A DNA stretch of 39,696 nucleotides from a virus, in the IMG/VR virus record IMGVR_UViG_3300031746_000066, positions 1-39,696 of that record; one strand, written 5' to 3'. Each line of letters begins with the position of its first letter. Position 1 is the stretch's first letter. This document shows positions 5,834 through 35,114 of this stretch, one piece after another. A program made the position numbers and the translations under genes. The notes under the pieces were generated by a model. The model did not search any database, was not told where the DNA came from, and saw only the letters and a list, made by a program, of their open reading frames with translations.

Positions 5834-8800
5834 TCACTGTACATCTGGTTTTTCCGCATCTTCCGGTCGGTAAGTATGCTCTACCGAAGATACATTAAGC
5901 TTCCCTTTGCGTAAAGTAAATTCAACTACAACTACCATTTTCTTAAAGCCGGTTGGAGCCACGTTTTCTCCCCATGGCGGCCAGTAGATCAACTCCATAA
6001 GAGATCCATTGATGTCGGCTACCAGCCTTGTGAACTGCTTGGTGTTATTTTGGTACTTTTTATAAGTTTCTTCTGTGATATAGGCCAGGGCCCATATCTT
6101 TTCTTCGGCGTCTTTGTATTTGTGGGCATTAGACATAAGCTTTTCTATTTGAGGTCCGTCAACAAAAGTCATGGTTTTTTTATATTTATGACCATCACTT
6201 TCATACTCTTTGGTCCACACCCATAGGTCATTGGATAGATGTTTACCACCTCTAGGCGGCAATATTAAAGTTCTAAGGTCTTCAAAGTAAGTATGGATAA
6301 CTGCCTTTTTGGCCAAATATTTGCCAAGTGGTCTATATTCTGAATAAGAGCTGTCTTCTGGCTTTCGTTTTTCTTTCTTTACTTCAGCTTTTGTTTTTTC
6401 AAAAAGCTTGATTTTGTGTTCAATTTCCATGTCTGACTCTGGCATCAAACTGTCCAAAACGCCAGATACAATCAACTTATGAGCAATACCGGAATGTACT
6501 GCTGACTTTTCAGCTTTTTGGCCTTTAATTTTTTCCTTAAAATGGCATTCAATAAAATGTCTAAAGTCTTTATATGGCTTATTGGCTACCAGTTGATGGT
6601 AGGCCGCAGGTCCAACTCCAATGATCATTCCCAGTGGAGCTATAAGCTTGTTGTCCTTGATTACAAAATCCTCTTCGCTCAGGTTAATGTCTGGTAATGT
6701 CACGTATTTTTTGACATCTTTCCAGAATTTACTGATAATATCGTCCTTGGTACTATGGGACAGTACACTAGCCCACCATTCAATAGGGAAATGGCACTTG
6801 AGCCACATGCAAGCATAGGCTACCTGGGCATAAGAGGTAGAATGGGACTTGTTAAAGCTATAGTTTGAGCTAGCTTTGATCTGCTGGACTAGTAGATCTA
6901 CCTGGTGGTCAGACCAGCCCCTTTTCTTACAGCCGTTGTGCAAATCTTTAAGACATTCAACCATCAAAACAGGGTCTTTTTTACCAATAGCTCTTCGGGC
7001 TTTTTCGGTTTCTCCGTCACTGTATCCAACCAAAAGCTTAAAAGCTGAAAGAGTTTGCTCCTGATACAGAGCAATACCAAAAGAGTTACCTGTAATCTGT
7101 TCCATGTCTGGGTGGATATACCGGACTCTTTCCCCTTGGGCTCGAGCACAATAAACCTCAGCTAGAGTTCTGCCGTCATCATCCAAGGCGTCCAAGGTAC
7201 CTGGACGACCAAGAGCCGTGATGTTACTTAACTCTGGTATCGACATCGGCTTGGTCTTTTTGAGCAAAGGCACGACCGTAGCAGAGTCAAACTGGAACAC
7301 GCTTACCGTATTTCCTCTGCCAAACTCCTCAAACACCTTTGGGTTATAAGGTAAGTCCCAAGGATTATAGGTTTTGTTGTGCCTTTTTTTGATAAGGTTA
7401 AGACATTCTTCGATATCGTACAAGGTTTTTACACCAAGAAAGTCAAACTTAAGCAAACCTCTTTCTTCAACCCATTTTGGGTTAAATCCAGTGACAAGAC
7501 TTTCACCTTTACCGACCCGGATCAAAGGAACGTATTCCTGTATTGGCTTGTCAGCTATCACCACACCACAAGGATGCTGGGACTTTTGCCTTTGGACTCC
7601 AAGCATCTGGACCACTGTATCCCAAATGTTCTTGTTGGCTAGGTTTTCAGAGTAAGATTTTAATTCTTCATATTCATTGATAATACCTACACCCTTTTTG
7701 CCGCCAAAGACAAATTCATATTCATTTGATCCTTGAGGGGAAGTGGGCAGCTTTTTACACATATCTTCGGTAGATTTTCTGACTTCACCTAAAAGAGACC
7801 TTTCGGCATCCTTTATAGAAGACTTGATCTTAAGCATCACATCGATACTGATTGGAGCAAAATTGTCCCCATATTTTTTCCTAAGATAGTCCAAAACTTC
7901 ATCTTTCCTGCCAAAGTCCATGTCAACATCCGGCAAGACATTTTCATTGATACGGCCCAGAGTAAGGAAACGTGGCAGGGACAGCCCATAAAGTATCGGG
8001 TCAGTAGCAGACACACCAAGGACGTAAAGCATCAAGCTGCCGCCAGCAGAGCCCCTAGTGGTCATCAAAATGCCAGCTTCTCGGCAAAAGTTGGCTATAT
8101 CCTCTACCGTAAAGAAATAAGGCATTAGGTTCAGTTTACCGTTATTGGTAAATAGATCGATTTCTTCCTTTAGTCTAGCTACATATATAGGATTGTCCCA
8201 TTTCATTCTGCCGTGACGGTCGATAGCCAGCTTGAGCTTTTTCATCCAGTCTGGGTCCAATGGAGGTAAAACCCACCGGTCTTTGTTGGTCTTAAGCTTG
8301 AAGCTGTCAAACTTGCTAGCCCAATAATAGCTGTTGTCTACCCACTCTTCGATATCTCTGTCAGATACATCTAAGGTGTGCTTTAGGCATTTAGCTGCTT
8401 CTTGTGTTGTAAGTATATGATATGAGTTAGAAAACTTCCATTGCTCTAGGCCATTACCAAGTTTAGACTCTTGGACCAGTTGCTGTTCTGGGTAAGCAAA
8501 ATGGCTATCCAGGCTAATCAAAACTTTGTCGCCGTTTTGCTTAGCTAGGTCAAGCACAAACTGATTGGCCTTTTTTTGTAAGTCACCGTCCGGGAACCAA
8601 GGTGTACATTCGTTTGGCTTGAAATAGCCTTCAGTAAGCTTTTGCTTAGTGGCTTTGTCGTAAGTAGGTTTCACCCAATCTTTAACGATTTCATGGGGGA
8701 ATACTTCAACAAAAAAGTCGTCTTTACCTACTAAGTCTCTTAATAAATAATATGACTTGGTAGCTCTTTCTGGGTAAACTTTGCCAGTTACCCTGTCTAC

Positions 8801-15399: not shown

Positions 15400-15624
15400 T
15401 TAAAAGAACTTGCTTACTTCATTGGCGCTGAGATGTTTATATATCACATCTCTAGCTGCCTCATATCCTTCCATATATTCTTCAGATTTCTTTTCATCGT
15501 ACTTAACAACAGATCTCATTTCTTGCAGAGCATCCCAGACAGCGGATATGATTTCATTAACCGCCATTGTTCTTTCAATTTGCTCTTTGTCTTCAAAACC
15601 ATCGAATTCTAAAGTTACTTTCAT
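15400..15624 (-). CDS. Small acidic hypothetical protein (74 aa)
   Basis: The protein has a short beta start (KVTLEFDGFEDK) and then helices with many Glu and Lys. The layout resembles the small phage proteins that begin 'MKVTLEFD..ED' and end in a helix, but I recognise no function. Its ATG overlaps the chaperonin stop by four bases, so translation is coupled to GroEL. Confidence 0.65.
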   Translation of the reverse strand: MKVTLEFDGFEDKEQIERTMAVNEIISAVWDALQEMRSVVKYDEKKSEEYMEGYEAARDVIYKHLSANEVSKFF

Positions 15625-17381
15625 TTGTCATCTCCTATTGCATTGTTAAATCCACGCGCAAAAGATCTTTCCTGTTCATCAGCTTCATGGTCACGGTTAA
15701 AGGAAACTATCCCACCAAGCGTACCAAGAAGGCTTGAAATGCTAATGCTATTTTCAATAGCTTGGGTGACCGCACTAGATGAGTCGAGAAGTAATAAGGG
15801 ACTAACAAAGGCTTCTTTATAAATGTCGTAAGGCTGATTACCACTTTTGATTTTAGCAATGATTTCATTCTCTTCCTCTGTTGTATGGCCAAAGTTATCA
15901 AATAATTTACGAACAGGTCGCATAAAAGCCGCTGCAAGCACACTAGCAGCATGGCAATCAGCAAAATTAGTAGACTCAAGAGCTATGTTTGTAAGATCGT
16001 CAGCCAATTTAACTAGGACGTAACCCCCTCCAGGGCAAGCCCCATCCTTAATAGCGCCCCTGATAGCCATCCAGGCATCGTCAGCCCGGTCACGGCGCTC
16101 CCTAGTTTCACCAACACTAGGACCGCAGATATACATCCTGGCAATACCAGAAGTAAGTTTGCCAATCCTTACATTTAGGTCGTTTTGCTCATATTGAGAT
16201 TCAGGAGACTTTAGAAGTTCCTTAAGCTGATCTACCCGGTACTCCAAAAGCAATGGATCTTCTTTGGAAATGATACTTGTGCGGTATCGATTCATTTCCA
16301 CAGCGGTTACCAGGTTATCCCTTACTATAGCATTTATGTCCATACCAGACAATGGCTTGTCCATTACATTAAAAACCGGGGCTCCAGTATAAGCCTGGAG
16401 ATCAAGAAGGAATTGGGTCTTCCAACCCGGAATGGGACTTTCAGGGGTCATTAAGGGTAAAATTTTGGGAGTATTAGGGTGGTTCCAATTCGCGTGCATG
16501 TCGGCCAGGAACACATCCGAAAACCCATGGGCAATTAAAAGCACATTCTTATGGGGAGTCTTGGCGGTTTCAAAATGTTCCGCCAATTTAGACAAAGCGT
16601 CCCAAACCAACATAACATCATTAATTACACCATCATACAACACAACAACCGGGTTTTCTAGTCCAATTATAGTGCCGGTTTTGTCATTAATAAACCCACT
16701 GGAGAACTTTTTTAAGGTTTCTTCGTAGCCACGGTCAATGGTGTAGCCATTGATGCGCTCAATTTTGATCTCAGTGGGGCCAGTAGTCTCTACAATAGTC
16801 AAGTTGCCCTCTTCACCTACCAAATCAAAAGACTCGACAATCTTAGTGGCCAGATCTTCGTCAGCATTAGCGGACAACTTGGCTACCTGAAAAAGAAAGG
16901 TTTCGTAATCTTCTAAGTCCACCTGGATGGTATATTTGTCTTTTACCAGCTGCTTGATGACCGGCACTAGCTTTTGCATGGACCGAACTAACAGTTGGGG
17001 AGACAATTTAGGGTTGGACTGGACCACGTCATGGGTAAGTTTGCAGATAGCAGCAGACAAAATAGTGCAACTAGTGGTGCCATCACCTGCCTCAATAGCA
17101 GTCCTTAAAGCGCCAGCTCGAGAAGACTCCAAGATAAGCTGTTTAACTGGATCGTGGTATCCAAGATGCTTAATAACGGTAACGCCATCTTTGGTAATAA
17201 TTGGATCATAGTTGATTTGAGGGTTCTCAATCAAAACCTGGCGACCACCCGGTCCAAGAGTAGCTCCAACTATCTCAGCAATGTTGTTTAGAGTCTCAAC
17301 CACCACTTTGGCCAAATCCTTCCGATTAGAAATGATCTGCTTGGAAGCTGACTTGGGTTTTGCTGTATGGAAAATGCTCAA
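15621..17381 (-). CDS. groEL: Phage-encoded group I chaperonin (GroEL/Cpn60)
   Basis: This ATP-driven folding chamber likely folds phage proteins. Equatorial motifs are intact: TLGPGG (41-46), ITKDG (63-66), GDGTTS (99-104) and RADDAW with the catalytic Asp (about 434-435), then CPGGG (449-453). The apical domain keeps DRGYEE but is otherwise far from bacterial GroEL. The C-terminus lacks the Gly-Gly-Met tail. At 586 aa it is longer than usual (about 545). I chose a TTG start because GGAG lies six to eight bases before it and it overlaps the upstream TGA; a TTG 36 bases upstream has no site. No GroES gene is in the window. Confidence 0.93.
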   Translation of the reverse strand: MSIFHTAKPKSASKQIISNRKDLAKVVVETLNNIAEIVGATLGPGGRQVLIENPQINYDPIITKDGVTVIKHLGYHDPVKQLILESSRAGALRTAIEAGDGTTSCTILSAAICKLTHDVVQSNPKLSPQLLVRSMQKLVPVIKQLVKDKYTIQVDLEDYETFLFQVAKLSANADEDLATKIVESFDLVGEEGNLTIVETTGPTEIKIERINGYTIDRGYEETLKKFSSGFINDKTGTIIGLENPVVVLYDGVINDVMLVWDALSKLAEHFETAKTPHKNVLLIAHGFSDVFLADMHANWNHPNTPKILPLMTPESPIPGWKTQFLLDLQAYTGAPVFNVMDKPLSGMDINAIVRDNLVTAVEMNRYRTSIISKEDPLLLEYRVDQLKELLKSPESQYEQNDLNVRIGKLTSGIARMYICGPSVGETRERRDRADDAWMAIRGAIKDGACPGGGYVLVKLADDLTNIALESTNFADCHAASVLAAAFMRPVRKLFDNFGHTTEEENEIIAKIKSGNQPYDIYKEAFVSPLLLLDSSSAVTQAIENSISISSLLGTLGGIVSFNRDHEADEQERSFARGFNNAIGDDK

Positions 17382-17548
17382 TTTGTTTCTCCGCCATCTT
17401 GACTTGGCTTTTCCCAAGGTTTTATTTGATCGTCTCTTATCTGTTTCATAAAGTCAAGAAATTCTTTGTGCTGGTCCAAAGTTTCCTCAACCGTCATTTC
17501 TGGTTCAGGTGGCGGCGGAACTGGAATCTCGTTTTCTTCGTCGTTCAT
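17378..17548 (-). CDS. Small acidic proline-rich ORF (56 aa) coupled to GroEL
   Basis: An ATG frame of 56 codons lies between the winged-helix gene and GroEL. The product starts with an acidic, Pro-rich stretch (MNDEENEIPVPPPPEPE), then an acidic helix (DQHKEFLDFMKQIRDDQ). Its TGA overlaps the TTG start of the chaperonin (TTGA), and it overlaps the end of the upstream gene by 44 bases. Coding is supported by the precise fit to the GroEL start; the ribosome-binding site is weak. The function is unknown. Confidence 0.55.
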   Translation of the reverse strand: MNDEENEIPVPPPPEPEMTVEETLDQHKEFLDFMKQIRDDQIKPWEKPSQDGGETN

Positions 17549-18627: not shown

Positions 18628-20091
18628 ATGACTGAAATGACATATCGAGACCAAACCACCATTTATCTCCCTGTAGATGATTCCAATCTTACTAAGGTTA
18701 AAACTTTTTTGTCTTACAAAGACGAATCAATAGCTTACCTGATAAAGCAAACCCAAAAAAATGGTTACAAATGGAGACAAGATCCACAAAAAACCGCACT
18801 TAAGATCACGGAATTAAAGGAACAACTTACTAAATCTCTTTTGTATATGGACGACAAAGGTTACTACACACTTAAGGGATTGGTCTGTGATCTAGAAAAG
18901 CAATTTAATTGGGCAAAACCTTCTTTTACAAAATCTGATTTCAAACGCATCCCACTTAAGCACAAACCATTTGATATGCGTCCATACCAAAAAGATGCAT
19001 TAAATGCGTTACTTAAGTATGAACATGCCAGTATTGAAATTCCGACAGGCGGCGGTAAGAGCCTGATTATATTAAATTTATTGATTAATCAACCTGTAAA
19101 AACTTTGATCATGGCTCCTTTGTCTGAAGTAGCTGACCAGCTCTACAAACAACTTTTGCAAACTTTTGGTCCCCAGTATGTCGGTAAGTACTCGTCTACA
19201 TCAAAAAGCAAGACTAAGCTCTTTACCGTAGCCACCACTCAGGCTCTTACCCGTATCGACCAAGACCATCCTGCTTGGGATTTGTTGTCTGATGCTGAAC
19301 AAATTATATTTGACGAAAGTCATTCTTGTCCCGCCGCCACTTTCCAATCTATCTGCCTTGAGGGTGTGGGTGCCAAAGCTACGTACCGATATTTTGTATC
19401 AGCTACTCAAATGAGGTCTGATGGTAAGGACTTGCTCCTGGGTGGCATAATAGGCCCTACAGTCTATCGGACATTTATGCAAGACTTAGTCAGCCAAGGC
19501 TACTTAAAATCGATTCAAGCGGCCTTTTTGCGCGTTCCAGGGGTATCTAGTGCTAGTAGCGAACCTAAGGAAGAAACTAGACGCAACTTGTACGAGAACC
19601 CACACGTCTACAAAATGGTTTCGGACATGGTAAGCAAGATCTATGCCCAAACTGACTTACAGGTCTTGATCCTCATAGAGGAGTATAGTCAATTCGTCCT
19701 ATTAAAAAATTACTTGACAAATCCTTTCGAGTTTGCTCATGGCACAATCAGCAGTGATGCCAAAAATACGGTGCCACAGGAATACTGGAAGTGTGACTTG
19801 GCAGCAATAGTGGAAAAATTTAATCGACTTCAAACAAGAGTACTTATTGGCACATCAGCTGTGTCAACAGGTGTTGACATTCAACCTACCGGTGTGATAT
19901 TCTACATTCAAGGCGGCAAGAGTGAGATTAAAGTTAAGCAAAGTATTGGTAGAGGTACACGTCCAGTTGGTCCTAAAGTGTTGAAAGTGTTTGATTTTAT
20001 TGTATCTGGTAGCCCCACCTTAGAACGTCATGCAGCCTATCGAAAAGAAATCTATGAGTCCATCACGGAGATTCCCGTAAAGGTTTATTAA
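18628..20091 (+). CDS. UvsW-like superfamily 2 DNA helicase
   Basis: This ATP-dependent helicase likely remodels forks and recombination junctions. After an N-terminal domain of about 110 residues come motif Q/I (RPYQKDAL, IPTGGGKS at 138-145), motif II DESH (229-232), motif III SATQ, motif V (GTSAVSTGVD) and motif VI (QSIGRGTR). At 487 aa it equals T4 UvsW (about 500). AGGAGG lies four bases before the ATG; a nearby out-of-frame ATG is ignored. It opens the plus-strand operon and overlaps the sigma-factor start by one base (TAATG). Confidence 0.9.
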   Translation: MTEMTYRDQTTIYLPVDDSNLTKVKTFLSYKDESIAYLIKQTQKNGYKWRQDPQKTALKITELKEQLTKSLLYMDDKGYYTLKGLVCDLEKQFNWAKPSFTKSDFKRIPLKHKPFDMRPYQKDALNALLKYEHASIEIPTGGGKSLIILNLLINQPVKTLIMAPLSEVADQLYKQLLQTFGPQYVGKYSSTSKSKTKLFTVATTQALTRIDQDHPAWDLLSDAEQIIFDESHSCPAATFQSICLEGVGAKATYRYFVSATQMRSDGKDLLLGGIIGPTVYRTFMQDLVSQGYLKSIQAAFLRVPGVSSASSEPKEETRRNLYENPHVYKMVSDMVSKIYAQTDLQVLILIEEYSQFVLLKNYLTNPFEFAHGTISSDAKNTVPQEYWKCDLAAIVEKFNRLQTRVLIGTSAVSTGVDIQPTGVIFYIQGGKSEIKVKQSIGRGTRPVGPKVLKVFDFIVSGSPTLERHAAYRKEIYESITEIPVKVY

Positions 20092-21086
20092 TGAGTGAAC
20101 ATTTCAAAGATTTCGTAGCTTTTTGTAATAAAGAAGCTAAACGAATAGCTAAGGCTGATCCGAGGGACCAGGAAAAGCTATTAACTGATCTGTTCGTACT
20201 AGAAGATGAGTTTCGCAGAATAATTGCTACCAAGAAATGGGAAAACATCATATACCCAGCTTTTGTTGACTATATAGTTAATACAAAAGGAAACGTTCTA
20301 GCCGCTAGAGTGTATTTTCGGGAAAGACAAAGCACTTTTAGTGCTGAAATGAGTAAACTTTTTAAAAATAACCAGCTTTATACTGTACTTGGCAACTACA
20401 AAATCAATTATGAGTTTATTAACTGGGTATGTAAAAACTTCCCTTATTCAAAAGACAAGCCTAAGTACAAGAAATTACACGAAATTAAAGATGAAGTAGT
20501 TAAGATCAGGCAGATTTTGTCGATGAAAGATGTTTTTCTGGCTCTAAACCGCGCCAGACTCTTTTGGAACAAGTCCACTAATTGCAAACTGGACTACATG
20601 GACATCGTCCAGGATGCCTGCGAAGGCTACCTTAATGCAGTGGACAAGTTTACCCCTCCCTATACGACTACCTTTAGGGCTGTGGCTATTGGCCGGATGC
20701 TCCTTAAGATGCTTACCGACAACAATGCCCCAATGGTTCGACTACCACCTACTGACCAAAGGGTTTTATATCGAATCAATAATGCCAAGTATAGAGAAGG
20801 TCTTAGTTCAAATGAAGAGGTATTGGAGTTTGTTAAAGAAAGTTTTCCTAACGTATCTATGGACAGACTTTTAGCTATCGAGGCTTCTACTGAGATCTTT
20901 TACCCATTTGGTGGGGTAGGGGATGATGGAAAAGGTAAATGGAATGATGATAGCGAATTTGGTAACCCTGAAGAAAGACTTATTGAAGCTGACCTTAAGT
21001 ATCGGGTATCTTTGGTTTTTTCTACATTAACACCTTTTCAACAAAAACTTATTAAATTAAAATTTGGAGACAAAAAATGGAGTTAA
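20091..21086 (+). CDS. Phage RNA polymerase sigma factor with shortened region 4
   Basis: Residues 145-220 match sigma70 region 2: RARLFWNKS, then YMDIVQDACEGYLNAVDKF and TTTFRAVAIGRML (core-binding and -10 recognition helices). After a linker, residues 297-328 match the first helix of region 4 (LTPFQQKLIKLKFGD) and then stop, so the -35-reading helix-turn-helix is missing. T4 gp55, the late sigma, also lacks a region 4 helix-turn-helix. The 130-residue N-terminal extension is not recognised. The gene overlaps the next start by ten bases; no frameshift signal was found that would restore region 4. Confidence 0.85.
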   Translation: MSEHFKDFVAFCNKEAKRIAKADPRDQEKLLTDLFVLEDEFRRIIATKKWENIIYPAFVDYIVNTKGNVLAARVYFRERQSTFSAEMSKLFKNNQLYTVLGNYKINYEFINWVCKNFPYSKDKPKYKKLHEIKDEVVKIRQILSMKDVFLALNRARLFWNKSTNCKLDYMDIVQDACEGYLNAVDKFTPPYTTTFRAVAIGRMLLKMLTDNNAPMVRLPPTDQRVLYRINNAKYREGLSSNEEVLEFVKESFPNVSMDRLLAIEASTEIFYPFGGVGDDGKGKWNDDSEFGNPEERLIEADLKYRVSLVFSTLTPFQQKLIKLKFGDKKWS

Positions 21087-31306: not shown

Positions 31307-31567
31307 CTAGATCCTTTCTTCTTCAAAATCGTCATGTTCATCTTCGTCGTATTTATCTTCCCAGTTGTTCATTTCTTCCAGAGCAGCAACTTCTTCAATA
31401 TTTTCCAGATGTTTTGCATACATATGGCCAATAATTTGGTCCATAACCAAAGCAACTATTCCAATAATAGTCCATCCATTGCTTCCGGTAAGTATCATAC
31501 CAAGAATAAATAAAGCCCAAACACCGACAGACAAAATTCTAAAGTTTTTCCAGGTTGTGCTATCCAT
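31307..31567 (-). CDS. Small two-TM protein with acidic tail (86 aa)
   Basis: Two hydrophobic segments (about residues 12-28 and 33-45) are followed by a strongly acidic tail (NWEDKYDEDEHDDFEEERI). AAGGAG precedes the ATG by eight bases. It follows one of the 42-bp promoter-like elements. The layout could suit a holin or other membrane effector, but no family is recognised. Confidence 0.68.
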   Translation of the reverse strand: MDSTTWKNFRILSVGVWALFILGMILTGSNGWTIIGIVALVMDQIIGHMYAKHLENIEEVAALEEMNNWEDKYDEDEHDDFEEERI

Positions 31568-31585
31568 TTTTTAATCTCCTTGCTG

Positions 31586-31627
31586 GTTACTAAAATCTTA
31601 TCGGTTGTTTTGTGGAAAACTTTAGTT
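31586..31627 (-). promoter_or_regulatory. 42-bp promoter-like element, copy 1
   Basis: On the minus strand this reads AACTAAAGTTTTCCACAAAA, then CAACCGATAAG and a GTAAC end. It matches the plus-strand copy at 33129-33170 at 39 of 42 positions. It ends about 20 bases before the two-TM gene, so it likely drives that gene. Confidence 0.6.
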
Positions 31628-31653: not shown

Positions 31654-31671
31654 TGTTTTCGGAGGTATTTT

Positions 31672-32658
31672 ATGCCAGATCTGGAAATAAACGGATATCG
31701 GTACGTAACTTTAAAAGACAATGACCCTTTTGACTATAACCCAGCCAAAAAAAAAGTTGTACCTTCAAGTCAAGTTATACCTAAAATGGGTACAAGTAGC
31801 AGTATGAATGAGATAGAAACAGATGAAAACTATTATCGCTATACTCGTAATAAGATAGTTACTAGACTACAGTCTCCTATAGAGCTGTTTTATCAAGTTA
31901 GCGACCATTTAGATCTATCAAAAAAAAGATTTGTTACTTCTGTTCTTATGGATATGGCAGTAAAAAGTGCTCCATCTTTTTTTGACAGATTTAATAACAC
32001 CTTTGAAAACAAAAAGATTGGACTGTTCGCTTCTCAAAAGGAAGATGGAGGAGCAATTCTAAGCGATGAGCGTATTAGTGACAAGTTTGTTGATTTTTTT
32101 GATTTTGTGTGCATGCAAATACAAGAAGACGTATTACTTGTAAGTAATATTGACGGCACACCTCGCGTAAGTTTATGTCACTCTTTTGCCCCTAATGGAT
32201 GGGGAGCCAATACTGTCATAAACAAGTCTTTTGAAGAGTTGCATAGCGAAGTGGTGTTTTCTGATAGTAAACTTGTATTTCCTAGTGGCAACAAGTTGGC
32301 CGTTAAGCTTACTAAGTCTTTTTGTAAACTGGAAAGAATTGGAGCTATTGGTTTTTATACAAATCCAATCCTTAATAGGCACCCAGCTCTTAGACCACCA
32401 GATGAATACAACATATTTAATCCCAACAAACCGGAATTATATCTAAAATTTGAAAGGCAGACCATTACTGGATTACCTGAAATAGACTCTTTCCTTTTTA
32501 TAGTTAAAAATTACGTTATAGACGTTTTTGCTCCAGATAAATATATTCAAAATTTGAATATGCTTGAAAACATTGACAAAAATGCTTATTACAGAAACTG
32601 GCTACAGCTTAATGTTGAAAATGTAAAAAATGAACTTAAAAAAAGGATAACACAATGA
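31672..32658 (+). CDS. Heme-dependent oxidative N-demethylase-like protein (HODM alpha/DUF3445 family)
   Basis: The pattern recalls HODM alpha subunits (PF11927), which use heme to remove methyl groups. Seen in order: EDVLLVS (152-158); a 'CH..P.GW' region, SLCHSFAPNGW (167-177), as in the family's 'PSGW' box; a helix ending EELH (H191), where the family has an 'IHaPVP' box; and KFERQTITGLPEIDSFLFIV (259-278), close to the family's 'ERQTL.+LP....LFtI+ty'. The length (328 aa) suits the family. The N-terminal 50 residues are low-complexity. It overlaps the PDZ gene by four bases (ATGA). The substrate and whether heme is bound are unknown. Confidence 0.7.
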   Translation: MPDLEINGYRYVTLKDNDPFDYNPAKKKVVPSSQVIPKMGTSSSMNEIETDENYYRYTRNKIVTRLQSPIELFYQVSDHLDLSKKRFVTSVLMDMAVKSAPSFFDRFNNTFENKKIGLFASQKEDGGAILSDERISDKFVDFFDFVCMQIQEDVLLVSNIDGTPRVSLCHSFAPNGWGANTVINKSFEELHSEVVFSDSKLVFPSGNKLAVKLTKSFCKLERIGAIGFYTNPILNRHPALRPPDEYNIFNPNKPELYLKFERQTITGLPEIDSFLFIVKNYVIDVFAPDKYIQNLNMLENIDKNAYYRNWLQLNVENVKNELKKRITQ

Positions 32659-33134
32659 AATTCTTAGGTATTAGCCTGTTGATACATCTAGCAATAGCCT
32701 TTTTATTGATGTATCGTAAGGCGGAAACTATCAAGCAAGTTCCTAGGTTAACATCTAATAGTGTTGAACAGCCTAAATCATTTGAACCTATTAAAATAAA
32801 AATTTCAGTAGAACCACCTAAACCACAAAAATCTAAGAAAATTGTTAAATATAAAGAAGTTGTTGAGGAGCTTTCTTGTGACAGTTTTTATTATGGTATA
32901 GGTTATACTGGTAGTGTGTATGCGGATGACGAAGGAAAGTGCAACGTAGACAAATTGACCATCAATGCACCCTTATATAGAGCTGGAGTAATACCTGGAG
33001 ACATAATAGAAGGGGTTCCAGGTGAAATTTGTCCCGGTAGAGGAGCAAATGGATCATCATTAAGTGTAACCGTTCGCCACCAGGACACTATTCGGACCAT
33101 TTTATTGCAAAGAGAAAAGATCTGTGAGAACTAA
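32655..33134 (+). CDS. Membrane-anchored PDZ protein with TonB-like linker
   Basis: A hydrophobic anchor (residues 4-19, LGISLLIHLAIAFLLM) is followed by a Pro/Lys-rich spacer (PKSFEPIKIKISVEPPKPQK) like the periplasmic arm of TonB or GspC. Residues 75-155 resemble a PDZ domain: INAPLYRAGVIPGDIIEG with the carboxylate-binding-type loop, then SLSVTVRHQDTIRTILL. Four Cys residues lie in the domain and may pair. It is coupled to the HODM-like gene. Envelope sensing or protein handling is possible; no protease domain is present. Confidence 0.68.
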   Translation: MKFLGISLLIHLAIAFLLMYRKAETIKQVPRLTSNSVEQPKSFEPIKIKISVEPPKPQKSKKIVKYKEVVEELSCDSFYYGIGYTGSVYADDEGKCNVDKLTINAPLYRAGVIPGDIIEGVPGEICPGRGANGSSLSVTVRHQDTIRTILLQREKICEN

Positions 33135-33170
33135 AGTTTTCTACAAAACAACCGATAAGCTTTTGGTAAC
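33129..33170 (+). promoter_or_regulatory. 42-bp promoter-like element, copy 2
   Basis: The sequence reads AACTAAAGTTTTCTACAAAA, then CAACCGATAAG and GTAAC, followed by AAGGAG. It matches copy 1 (minus strand, 31586-31627) at 39 of 42 positions. It lies 12 bases before the start of the 49-aa membrane protein gene and partly overlaps the end of the PDZ gene. Confidence 0.6.
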
Positions 33171-33182
33171 AAGGAGAACATA

Positions 33183-33332
33183 ATGCAATATAATAAATTT
33201 TGGGTAGGTTGGGATTTTGGTGTAGGGATTATTTTTTTAGTTTTAAATCAAACAGTGCTTGGGCTTTTAATGATTGCGGTTGGCTTTGGAACGGCATGGC
33301 TGGAAGCCAAAAAAGAACAAAAAGGTGGTTAA
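33183..33332 (+). CDS. Very small membrane protein (49 aa)
   Basis: A 49-codon frame starts with MQYNKFWVGWDFGVGIIF and has two hydrophobic stretches (about 9-20 and 23-37) and a Lys/Glu-rich tail (EAKKEQKGG). AAGGAG lies six bases before the ATG, and the 42-bp element is just upstream. It is probably a membrane effector; the function is unknown. Confidence 0.68.
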   Translation: MQYNKFWVGWDFGVGIIFLVLNQTVLGLLMIAVGFGTAWLEAKKEQKGG

Positions 33333-34248: not shown

Positions 34249-34429
34249 CTGTGTATCTCATTACAGCGTCCTCTACACTGTTACCCTTTACAGCTGGAAG
34301 CCAGTTTCCAGCTACAAAAGCGTGATATATCTTGCTTTTAGGGTTATATGCCACATAAACAACATATGACCATATTTTTGTTTGATGGACTACTATACCG
34401 TAAACTTTACTATCCGTTGTGGGCTTCAC
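34232..34429 (-). CDS. Small HicB-like domain protein (65 aa)
   Basis: The core YHAFVAGNWLPAVKGNSVED resembles the HicB-type fold, in which a tyrosine/aromatic strand, a W turn and a G-(N/D)-(S/T)-x-E helix start recur. No HicA partner was seen next to it. The start is a GTG without a clear ribosome-binding site, overlapping the end of the oxygenase gene by 20 bases. The call is tentative. Confidence 0.5.
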   Translation of the reverse strand: MKPTTDSKVYGIVVHQTKIWSYVVYVAYNPKSKIYHAFVAGNWLPAVKGNSVEDAVMRYTATYVY

Positions 34430-35114
34430 TGAAAAACCATCCCGTCATTATATATTTAATCCCCTTTTCTAGGGGATATCCAGAGTGTACATGTGTCCAA
34501 TACGGTGGGAACAAGACAAGTCTACCCGCTTTAGGTTGAACTTTTAGTTTTTGATAAAGAAAACCGGTAGATCCGCCATGGTCTTCAGGTACGTCATTAA
34601 GGTATATAATATACGTCAACGTCCTGGCAGCTGACCCAGTTTTAAAACAGTCTATAGATTGAGCGTTTTCAATATGCCAAACATACCTGCCACCAGGTTG
34701 AGTCTTTTGAAGCTGATATCCTGTGTCATGATTAAACAGGTAATCTGGAGCCCAACCTATTGAACATGGATGATTTGTAAGTTCCGATACCACCCTAAGG
34801 GTGCTATCATGTAGACATTGATAAAACTCAAGATCTATTTCTTTAGACTCATTACTTTGAAGCTGATATAAGTGTATATCTTTGCTATCTTTTATTTCTT
34901 TATTAATGCCTGAGCCGGTTGACCCATCCATTTGATGAGATTTGCTTTTTTCAAAAACTCCTAACACTTTTTCACAAAAATCTACAGATAATACATTATC
35001 CAATATCCAAATATTATCACCCAAATTAACAGGTGAATTAAAAACTATATGATTAGGAACAGTAACCATTCCGTCTGGATCGTAAAATTTAGTTTGTTTT
35101 TGCGCGTATTCCAT
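34410..35114 (-). CDS. 2-oxoglutarate/Fe(II) oxygenase, prolyl-4-hydroxylase-like
   Basis: The double-stranded beta-helix oxygenase signature is present: WHIEN with H147 and E149, LTYIIYLND, GGSTGF, PKAGRLVLFPPYWTHVHSGYP with H208/H210, then KGIKYIMTGW (K220). The usual second ligand is Asp, and here Glu takes its place. The length of 234 aa is that of small phage and bacterial 2OG oxygenases. An AGGAC site lies six bases before the ATG. The substrate could be a protein or a modified base; the neighbours do not decide it. Confidence 0.85.
   Translation of the reverse strand: MEYAQKQTKFYDPDGMVTVPNHIVFNSPVNLGDNIWILDNVLSVDFCEKVLGVFEKSKSHQMDGSTGSGINKEIKDSKDIHLYQLQSNESKEIDLEFYQCLHDSTLRVVSELTNHPCSIGWAPDYLFNHDTGYQLQKTQPGGRYVWHIENAQSIDCFKTGSAARTLTYIIYLNDVPEDHGGSTGFLYQKLKVQPKAGRLVLFPPYWTHVHSGYPLEKGIKYIMTGWFFSEAHNG

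Follow-up and report, generated by a model that had tools for sequence, protein, structure and literature searches.

A distant phage member of the HODM alpha-like family PF11927 and its place in an orphan branch

What would a phage do with a relative of heme-dependent oxidative N-demethylase (HODM)? HODM is the known case in which a PAS fold has become an oxidative enzyme that uses heme, and phage genes are often linked to defence, repair or host take-over. The question is raised by a gene in a 39.7 kb stretch of viral DNA (hereafter the window), which was originally predicted to encode a protein of this kind. We ask whether the protein truly belongs to the family and the gene to a phage, which branch of the family it represents, and what its pocket, relatives and neighbours suggest about its work.

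Family, fold and genomic setting

The predicted ORF is real: it is intact from ATG to stop and carries a ribosome-binding site (table 1). The window, itself a virus record, aligns at 99.95% identity with a section of a 136.8-kb contig in IMG/VR (IMGVR_UViG_3300031952_000002), and the genes around the HODM-like gene encode DNA polymerase III alpha, a RecA/UvsX-like recombinase, a primase, a helicase, GroEL and tail proteins. Since these neighbours are phage genes, the HODM-like gene is truly phage-borne. The GroEL-type chaperonin itself (window positions 15621-17417, - strand) has a 39% homologue in the phage of contig L073.

The 328-aa protein matches PF11927 (HODM_asu-like) in Pfam-A with E=2.9e-11 and 43.7 bits, against a curated gathering cut-off of 25 bits; the match spans protein residues 46-285 and profile positions 9-235. 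Ten viral relatives tested in Pfam also score above the cut-off. The window protein is strongly diverged, with 15-16% identity to HODM and 30% to its L073 relative. NCBIfam gave no match, nor did a phmmer search of PDB sequences, so that HODM was reached through profile and fold only.

An AlphaFold2 (AF2) model, built with 23 relatives, is of moderate confidence (pLDDT 68, pTM 0.72). Its sole significant PDB matches in Foldseek are both HODM alpha, namely 5LTH (E=2.8e-10) and 5LTE (E=1.7e-9); like the Pfam match, this goes far past what chance would give. A second aligner superimposes the model on these structures over 291 residues (Z 21.1, rmsd 3.6), and the next-best fold scores Z 7.8. The model shows the HODM alpha fold, in which a PAS core is extended at both the N- and the C-terminus; a search of the viral structures in BFVD returned no significant match. 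Profile, structure and active-site conservation (see below) thus bear out the proposed membership, and the window protein belongs to PF11927 as a genuine, if distant, member. It has the HODM alpha fold and is most likely a heme-PAS protein of one domain, for which heme binding is predicted.

PAS folds are usually sensors, and the heme-PAS protein EcDOS (PDB 1VB6) is among the lower structural matches of the model. Both points favour the main rival reading, in which the heme would sense O2, NO or CO and the protein would signal via a partner, for example the membrane-anchored PDZ-like protein encoded by the next, coupled gene. The likeness to EcDOS lies in the PAS core fold, but it reaches only Z 7.2 over 99 residues and the EcDOS pocket is not of the HODM type. 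Moreover, the phage protein has no fused effector domain. We regard a sensor as unlikely.

Table 1. Features at and around the HODM-like gene, in window coordinates
Feature	Position	Strand	Basis or remark
Small membrane-type protein	31307..31567	-	3' of promoter copy 1; divergent from HODM-like gene
Sigma28/FliA-type promoter element, copy 1, TAAAGTTT-N11-ACCGATAA	31598..31625	-	Faces left to 31307-31567
Ribosome-binding site GGAGG	31661..31665	+	Sequence; 6 nt 5' of ATG
HODM_asu-like (PF11927) protein, 328 aa, E-R-Q branch	31672..32658	+	ATG 31672 to stop 32658; Pfam, fold match, tree
Codon of H191, HODM H194 equivalent, predicted heme ligand	32242..32244	+	Invariant in 94 sequences
Codon of R222, HODM R224 equivalent	32335..32337	+	Invariant in 94 sequences (L-INS-i)
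Codons E261-R262-Q263	32452..32460	+	E261 = HODM E266; R/K at 262 marks E-R-Q branch
159-aa protein, N-terminal anchor, PDZ-like C-terminus	32655..33134	+	ATG overlaps HODM-like stop
Sigma28/FliA-type promoter element, copy 2	33131..33158	+	Faces right to ATG at 33183
49-aa membrane-type ORF	33183..33332	+	Immediately after promoter copy 2
2OG-Fe(II) oxygenase	34410..35114	-	Sole PF13640 match in 136.8-kb contig; about 1.75 kb from HODM-like gene

The active-site pocket and the E-R-Q branch

The motifs on which the original prediction was built (ERQTITGLPE...LFIV, PNGW and H191) do follow the order seen in HODM and can be aligned with those of the family. When 94 proteins (43 viral, 25 E-R-Q and 26 E-L-Q) are aligned with L-INS-i, residues D153, H191, R222, E261, Q263 and F276 are invariant, with the exception of one shortened viral row that lacks the C-terminus. 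H191, R222 and E261 are the equivalents of HODM H194, R224 and E266 (numbered along the 5LTE sequence), which we take to be the heme ligand and distal-pocket residues; the conserved His, Arg and Glu of HODM reportedly have these roles. The placement of R222 is the least certain and depends on the method, as a default alignment displaces it by one. Its context, ERIGAIGF, reappears as ERVGAISF or ERLAAISF in the nearest phage relatives and aligns with ERFVWS in the remaining proteins.

By these residues the phage protein has an intact HODM-type pocket, with H191 as predicted heme ligand and with R222 and E261 predicted to lie distally. From this pocket we infer heme binding, O2 use and demethylation. 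The conservation also weighs against a sensor: the whole HODM distal pocket (R222, E261 and Q263) is invariant in the 94 proteins, which is more than heme binding by itself would need.

HODM alpha (PDB 5LTE, 5LTH, 5LTI) is the DUF3445 protein of dmmDABC, a dimethylamine monooxygenase. In Ruegeria, dmmABC is the dimethylamine (DMA) monooxygenase, and the same genes break down DMA in E. coli (PMC5520151). We surveyed 299 Pseudomonadota genomes, of which 47 contain PF11927, and found that the proteins fall cleanly into E-L-Q and E-R/K-Q sets, named after the active-site motif. Genes of the first set are adjoined by dmmA and dmmB in 26 of 26 sampled loci (near-copies included), as against none of the 25 bacterial E-R/K-Q loci, in seven of which the flanks span only about 1.4 kb. 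HODM alpha (5LTE) carries E-L-Q. The window phage protein has E-R-Q instead, and among the viral proteins of the 94-protein alignment all those that extend across the motif have R or K at this position. In the tree, the E-L-Q, dmm-linked set forms one separate 100/100 clade with the phage protein outside it.

Searches for the partner subunits were negative as well. The domains PF00175 and PF00111 are absent from the 18 viral records searched and DmmA from the 16 searched for it; the window phage's own 136.8-kb contig, which may be incomplete, matches none of PF00175, PF00111 and NF041259. Because of the E-R-Q motif, the position outside the dmm-linked clade and the lack of a DmmA or reductase partner in these searches, we rejected an identity as dimethylamine monooxygenase. 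The original prediction, which had named HODM alpha and an oxidative demethylase, is thus partly supported: it was right for family and fold, and too narrow for the enzyme.

For the same reasons it is very unlikely that the gene is an auxiliary metabolic gene for a dimethylamine or methylamine demethylase that feeds host C1 and N metabolism. Fold and pocket are as in HODM, and the activity of dmmABC in E. coli makes such a role conceivable, but the motif, the tree and the absence of dmmA, dmmB or dmmD neighbours and of any reductase in the phage contigs searched speak against it. What the window protein has in common with HODM alpha is the fold and the six pocket residues; it differs in sequence identity, in motif and clade, and in lacking DmmA, reductase and DmmD partners.

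It also resembles the orphan E-R-Q proteins of Pseudomonadota (for example L015, L016, L032, L042 and L044), with which it shares the invariant pocket, R/K at 262 and the lack of dmm neighbours. These differ from the window protein, which sits on a long branch in a phage clade and has phage-type PNGW and ERIGAIGFYTN...NRHP segments. By these sequence features the window gene represents the orphan E-R-Q branch of PF11927 in a phage, and its product may work like HODM, yet not as a dimethylamine monooxygenase. To our knowledge the E-R-Q part of the family has no known substrate, and we found no biochemical studies of its proteins in the literature. A soil DUF3445 gene raised the osmotolerance (salt tolerance) of E. 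coli alone, with no cloned partners (PMC5809485), so a partner-free function is possible in PF11927; the finding is also a lead on what members of the family do.

We consider it somewhat better than an even bet that the phage protein is a stand-alone heme-PAS oxygenase which uses host electrons and acts on an N-methyl-type substrate, though not on free dimethylamine. O2 would be bound at the heme and an N-methyl group (or a similar C-H next to N) would be oxidised, with formaldehyde as the likely by-product. Electrons would come from the host, through ferredoxin, a flavin reductase or another reductant; we propose a host donor because no phage-encoded reductase was found. That no reductase partner is encoded in the viral records searched is also a point in favour of a sensor. 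Given the strong divergence from HODM and even from the L073 relative, the substrate, or indeed the activity, may have changed.

Relatives in large phages and their gene neighbours

The original prediction described the family as one not usually linked to phages. This did not hold, as 42 further IMG/VR contigs, some of them near-copies of each other, encode PF11927 relatives. Motif scans were needed to find them: single-protein and few-sequence scans of IMG/VR recovered only the window phage itself, and the A4 scan recovered nothing. From one motif scan, 11 of 16 contigs were discarded as chance matches, mostly to an unrelated FSVERQHIQKLP family. The viral relatives comprise at least three phage lineages. 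One is of the window type (the window phage, L073, L126/L128 and L127); a second is a 250-aa group with a shorter N-terminus (L099, L104, L103 and others, on contigs of 31-381 kb); the third is T4-like (L095 and others), its HODM-like gene adjoining gp59 (helicase loader) and gp32. L072/L078 fall outside all three. In the tree the window protein groups with L073 (100/97) within a viral clade, where branches are long. These relatives share its pocket and, where tested, score above the PF11927 cut-off; they differ from it in their gene neighbours.

Other collections were silent. The best PHROGs match of the window protein has E=0.21, and ten viral relatives have none. Among the isolate phages of INPHARED, tblastn gave no match for any of four proteins tried (the window protein and three viral relatives), and a literature search found no paper on a phage HODM. 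The relatives in uncultivated large phages hence appear undescribed. It is this, together with an orphan branch of no known substrate, that makes the window protein of real interest.

The viral relatives are under purifying selection (dN/dS 0.08-0.44 in viral pairs). About 45 proteins are common to the L073 and window phages, yet the L073 phage has the HODM-like gene at a different position, an argument that the gene is kept for its function. That identity to every relative is low might point to a degenerate passenger without function. We find this hardly credible, as the ORF is intact with a ribosome-binding site, the pocket is invariant, the gene is kept in the L073 phage and its viral relatives are under purifying selection. 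E-R-Q conservation and purifying selection in several large-phage lineages offer a new route to the role of the orphan branch, and a small phage protein that stands alone is readily expressed. If the oxygenase reading is true, a heme oxygenase class would be added to the enzymes known from phages.

Directly 3' of the HODM-like gene in the window, the stop codon and the next ATG share four bases (32655-32658), which makes translational coupling plausible. The original prediction spoke of coupling to an envelope-anchored PDZ protein. The overlap stands, and so does the N-terminal hydrophobic membrane anchor of the 159-aa product; its PDZ domain is only weakly supported (Pfam PDZ_6, E=0.14), the best PDB matches include CtpB (E=0.55) and HtrA2 (E=1.5), each in its PDZ region, and the single-sequence model is poor (pLDDT 48). 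Coupling to a membrane protein gene would suit a sensor, but at the other viral loci examined no PDZ-like neighbour was seen.

Neighbours at these other loci are diverse. A UvdE-type UV endonuclease lies directly 3' of the gene in L082, L084, L086, L091 and L103 (called by Pfam on L082, and by sequence likeness on the other four). In L070 (5222-6546), a gene for a protein-L-isoaspartate methyltransferase (PCMT) overlaps the HODM-like start by four bases, and several apparent 2OG-type oxygenases follow 3-7 kb 3'. In the T4-like L095, L083 and L101 the HODM-like gene has gp59, followed by gp32, on one side and on the other an anchored protein whose match is endolysin-like; the PHROG calls are for L095 only. 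The NAD salvage genes NMNAT(-Nudix) and NAMPT are found a few kb away in L073 (contig 3300023202_000068, about 67-72 kb), with NAMPT near the gene in L127 also; NMNAT-Nudix and NAMPT are absent from the window phage contig. Directly 5' of the gene in L091 is a TnpB/Cas12f-like transposase gene (6616-7866, - strand), and patatin and other genes occur among the neighbours too. A 2OG-Fe(II) oxygenase is present in the window, L104 and L070; as a constant partner it was dropped, since only about 4 of 16 records have one above the cut-off.

These neighbours hint at repair or nucleic-acid work, or at NAD salvage. They vary by lineage, however, and so prove nothing. UvdE, the overlapping PCMT gene, gp59 with gp32, and the 2OG-Fe(II) oxygenases would all fit the oxidation of a modified macromolecule (methylated nucleic acid or protein) in repair or counter-defence, the protein being a heme counterpart of AlkB-type demethylases. 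With NAD salvage, patatin and other genes occurring as well, and 2OG oxygenases in so few records, we hold this to be improbable. Its wider form, in which several large-phage lineages carry such an AlkB counterpart, a heme oxidative demethylase for methylated nucleic acid, protein or cofactor that serves repair or counter-defence with host electron carriers, we think rather improbable too.

The inverted promoter-like elements

The gene had also been placed between two inverted copies of a promoter-like element. The copies are real (45 nt, 91% complementary, with arms at 31583-31627 and 33129-33173), but neither faces the HODM-like gene. Both point outward, so neither drives it, and a role of the elements as its promoters was rejected on orientation. 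Each contains a sigma28/FliA-type element (table 1). The L073 phage has no promoter of this type as good as those in the window phage.

The 136.8-kb contig contains about nine near-perfect copies of TAAAGTTT-N11-GCCGATAA, five exact and four that deviate at a single position. For those copies with an identified downstream start, the element faces it from some 24-31 nt upstream. This layout matches FliA (sigma28) promoters of E. coli, for example that of tar, TAAAGTTTCCCCCCTCCTTGCCGATAAC (PMC4183435). Judging by these copies, the window phage may employ the flagellar sigma factor or a mimic of it. A sigma-factor-like protein is encoded at window positions 20091-21083 (+ strand; phrog_351 E=6e-6, Sigma70_r2 E=0.002) and is a candidate for recognising the sigma28/FliA-type promoters.
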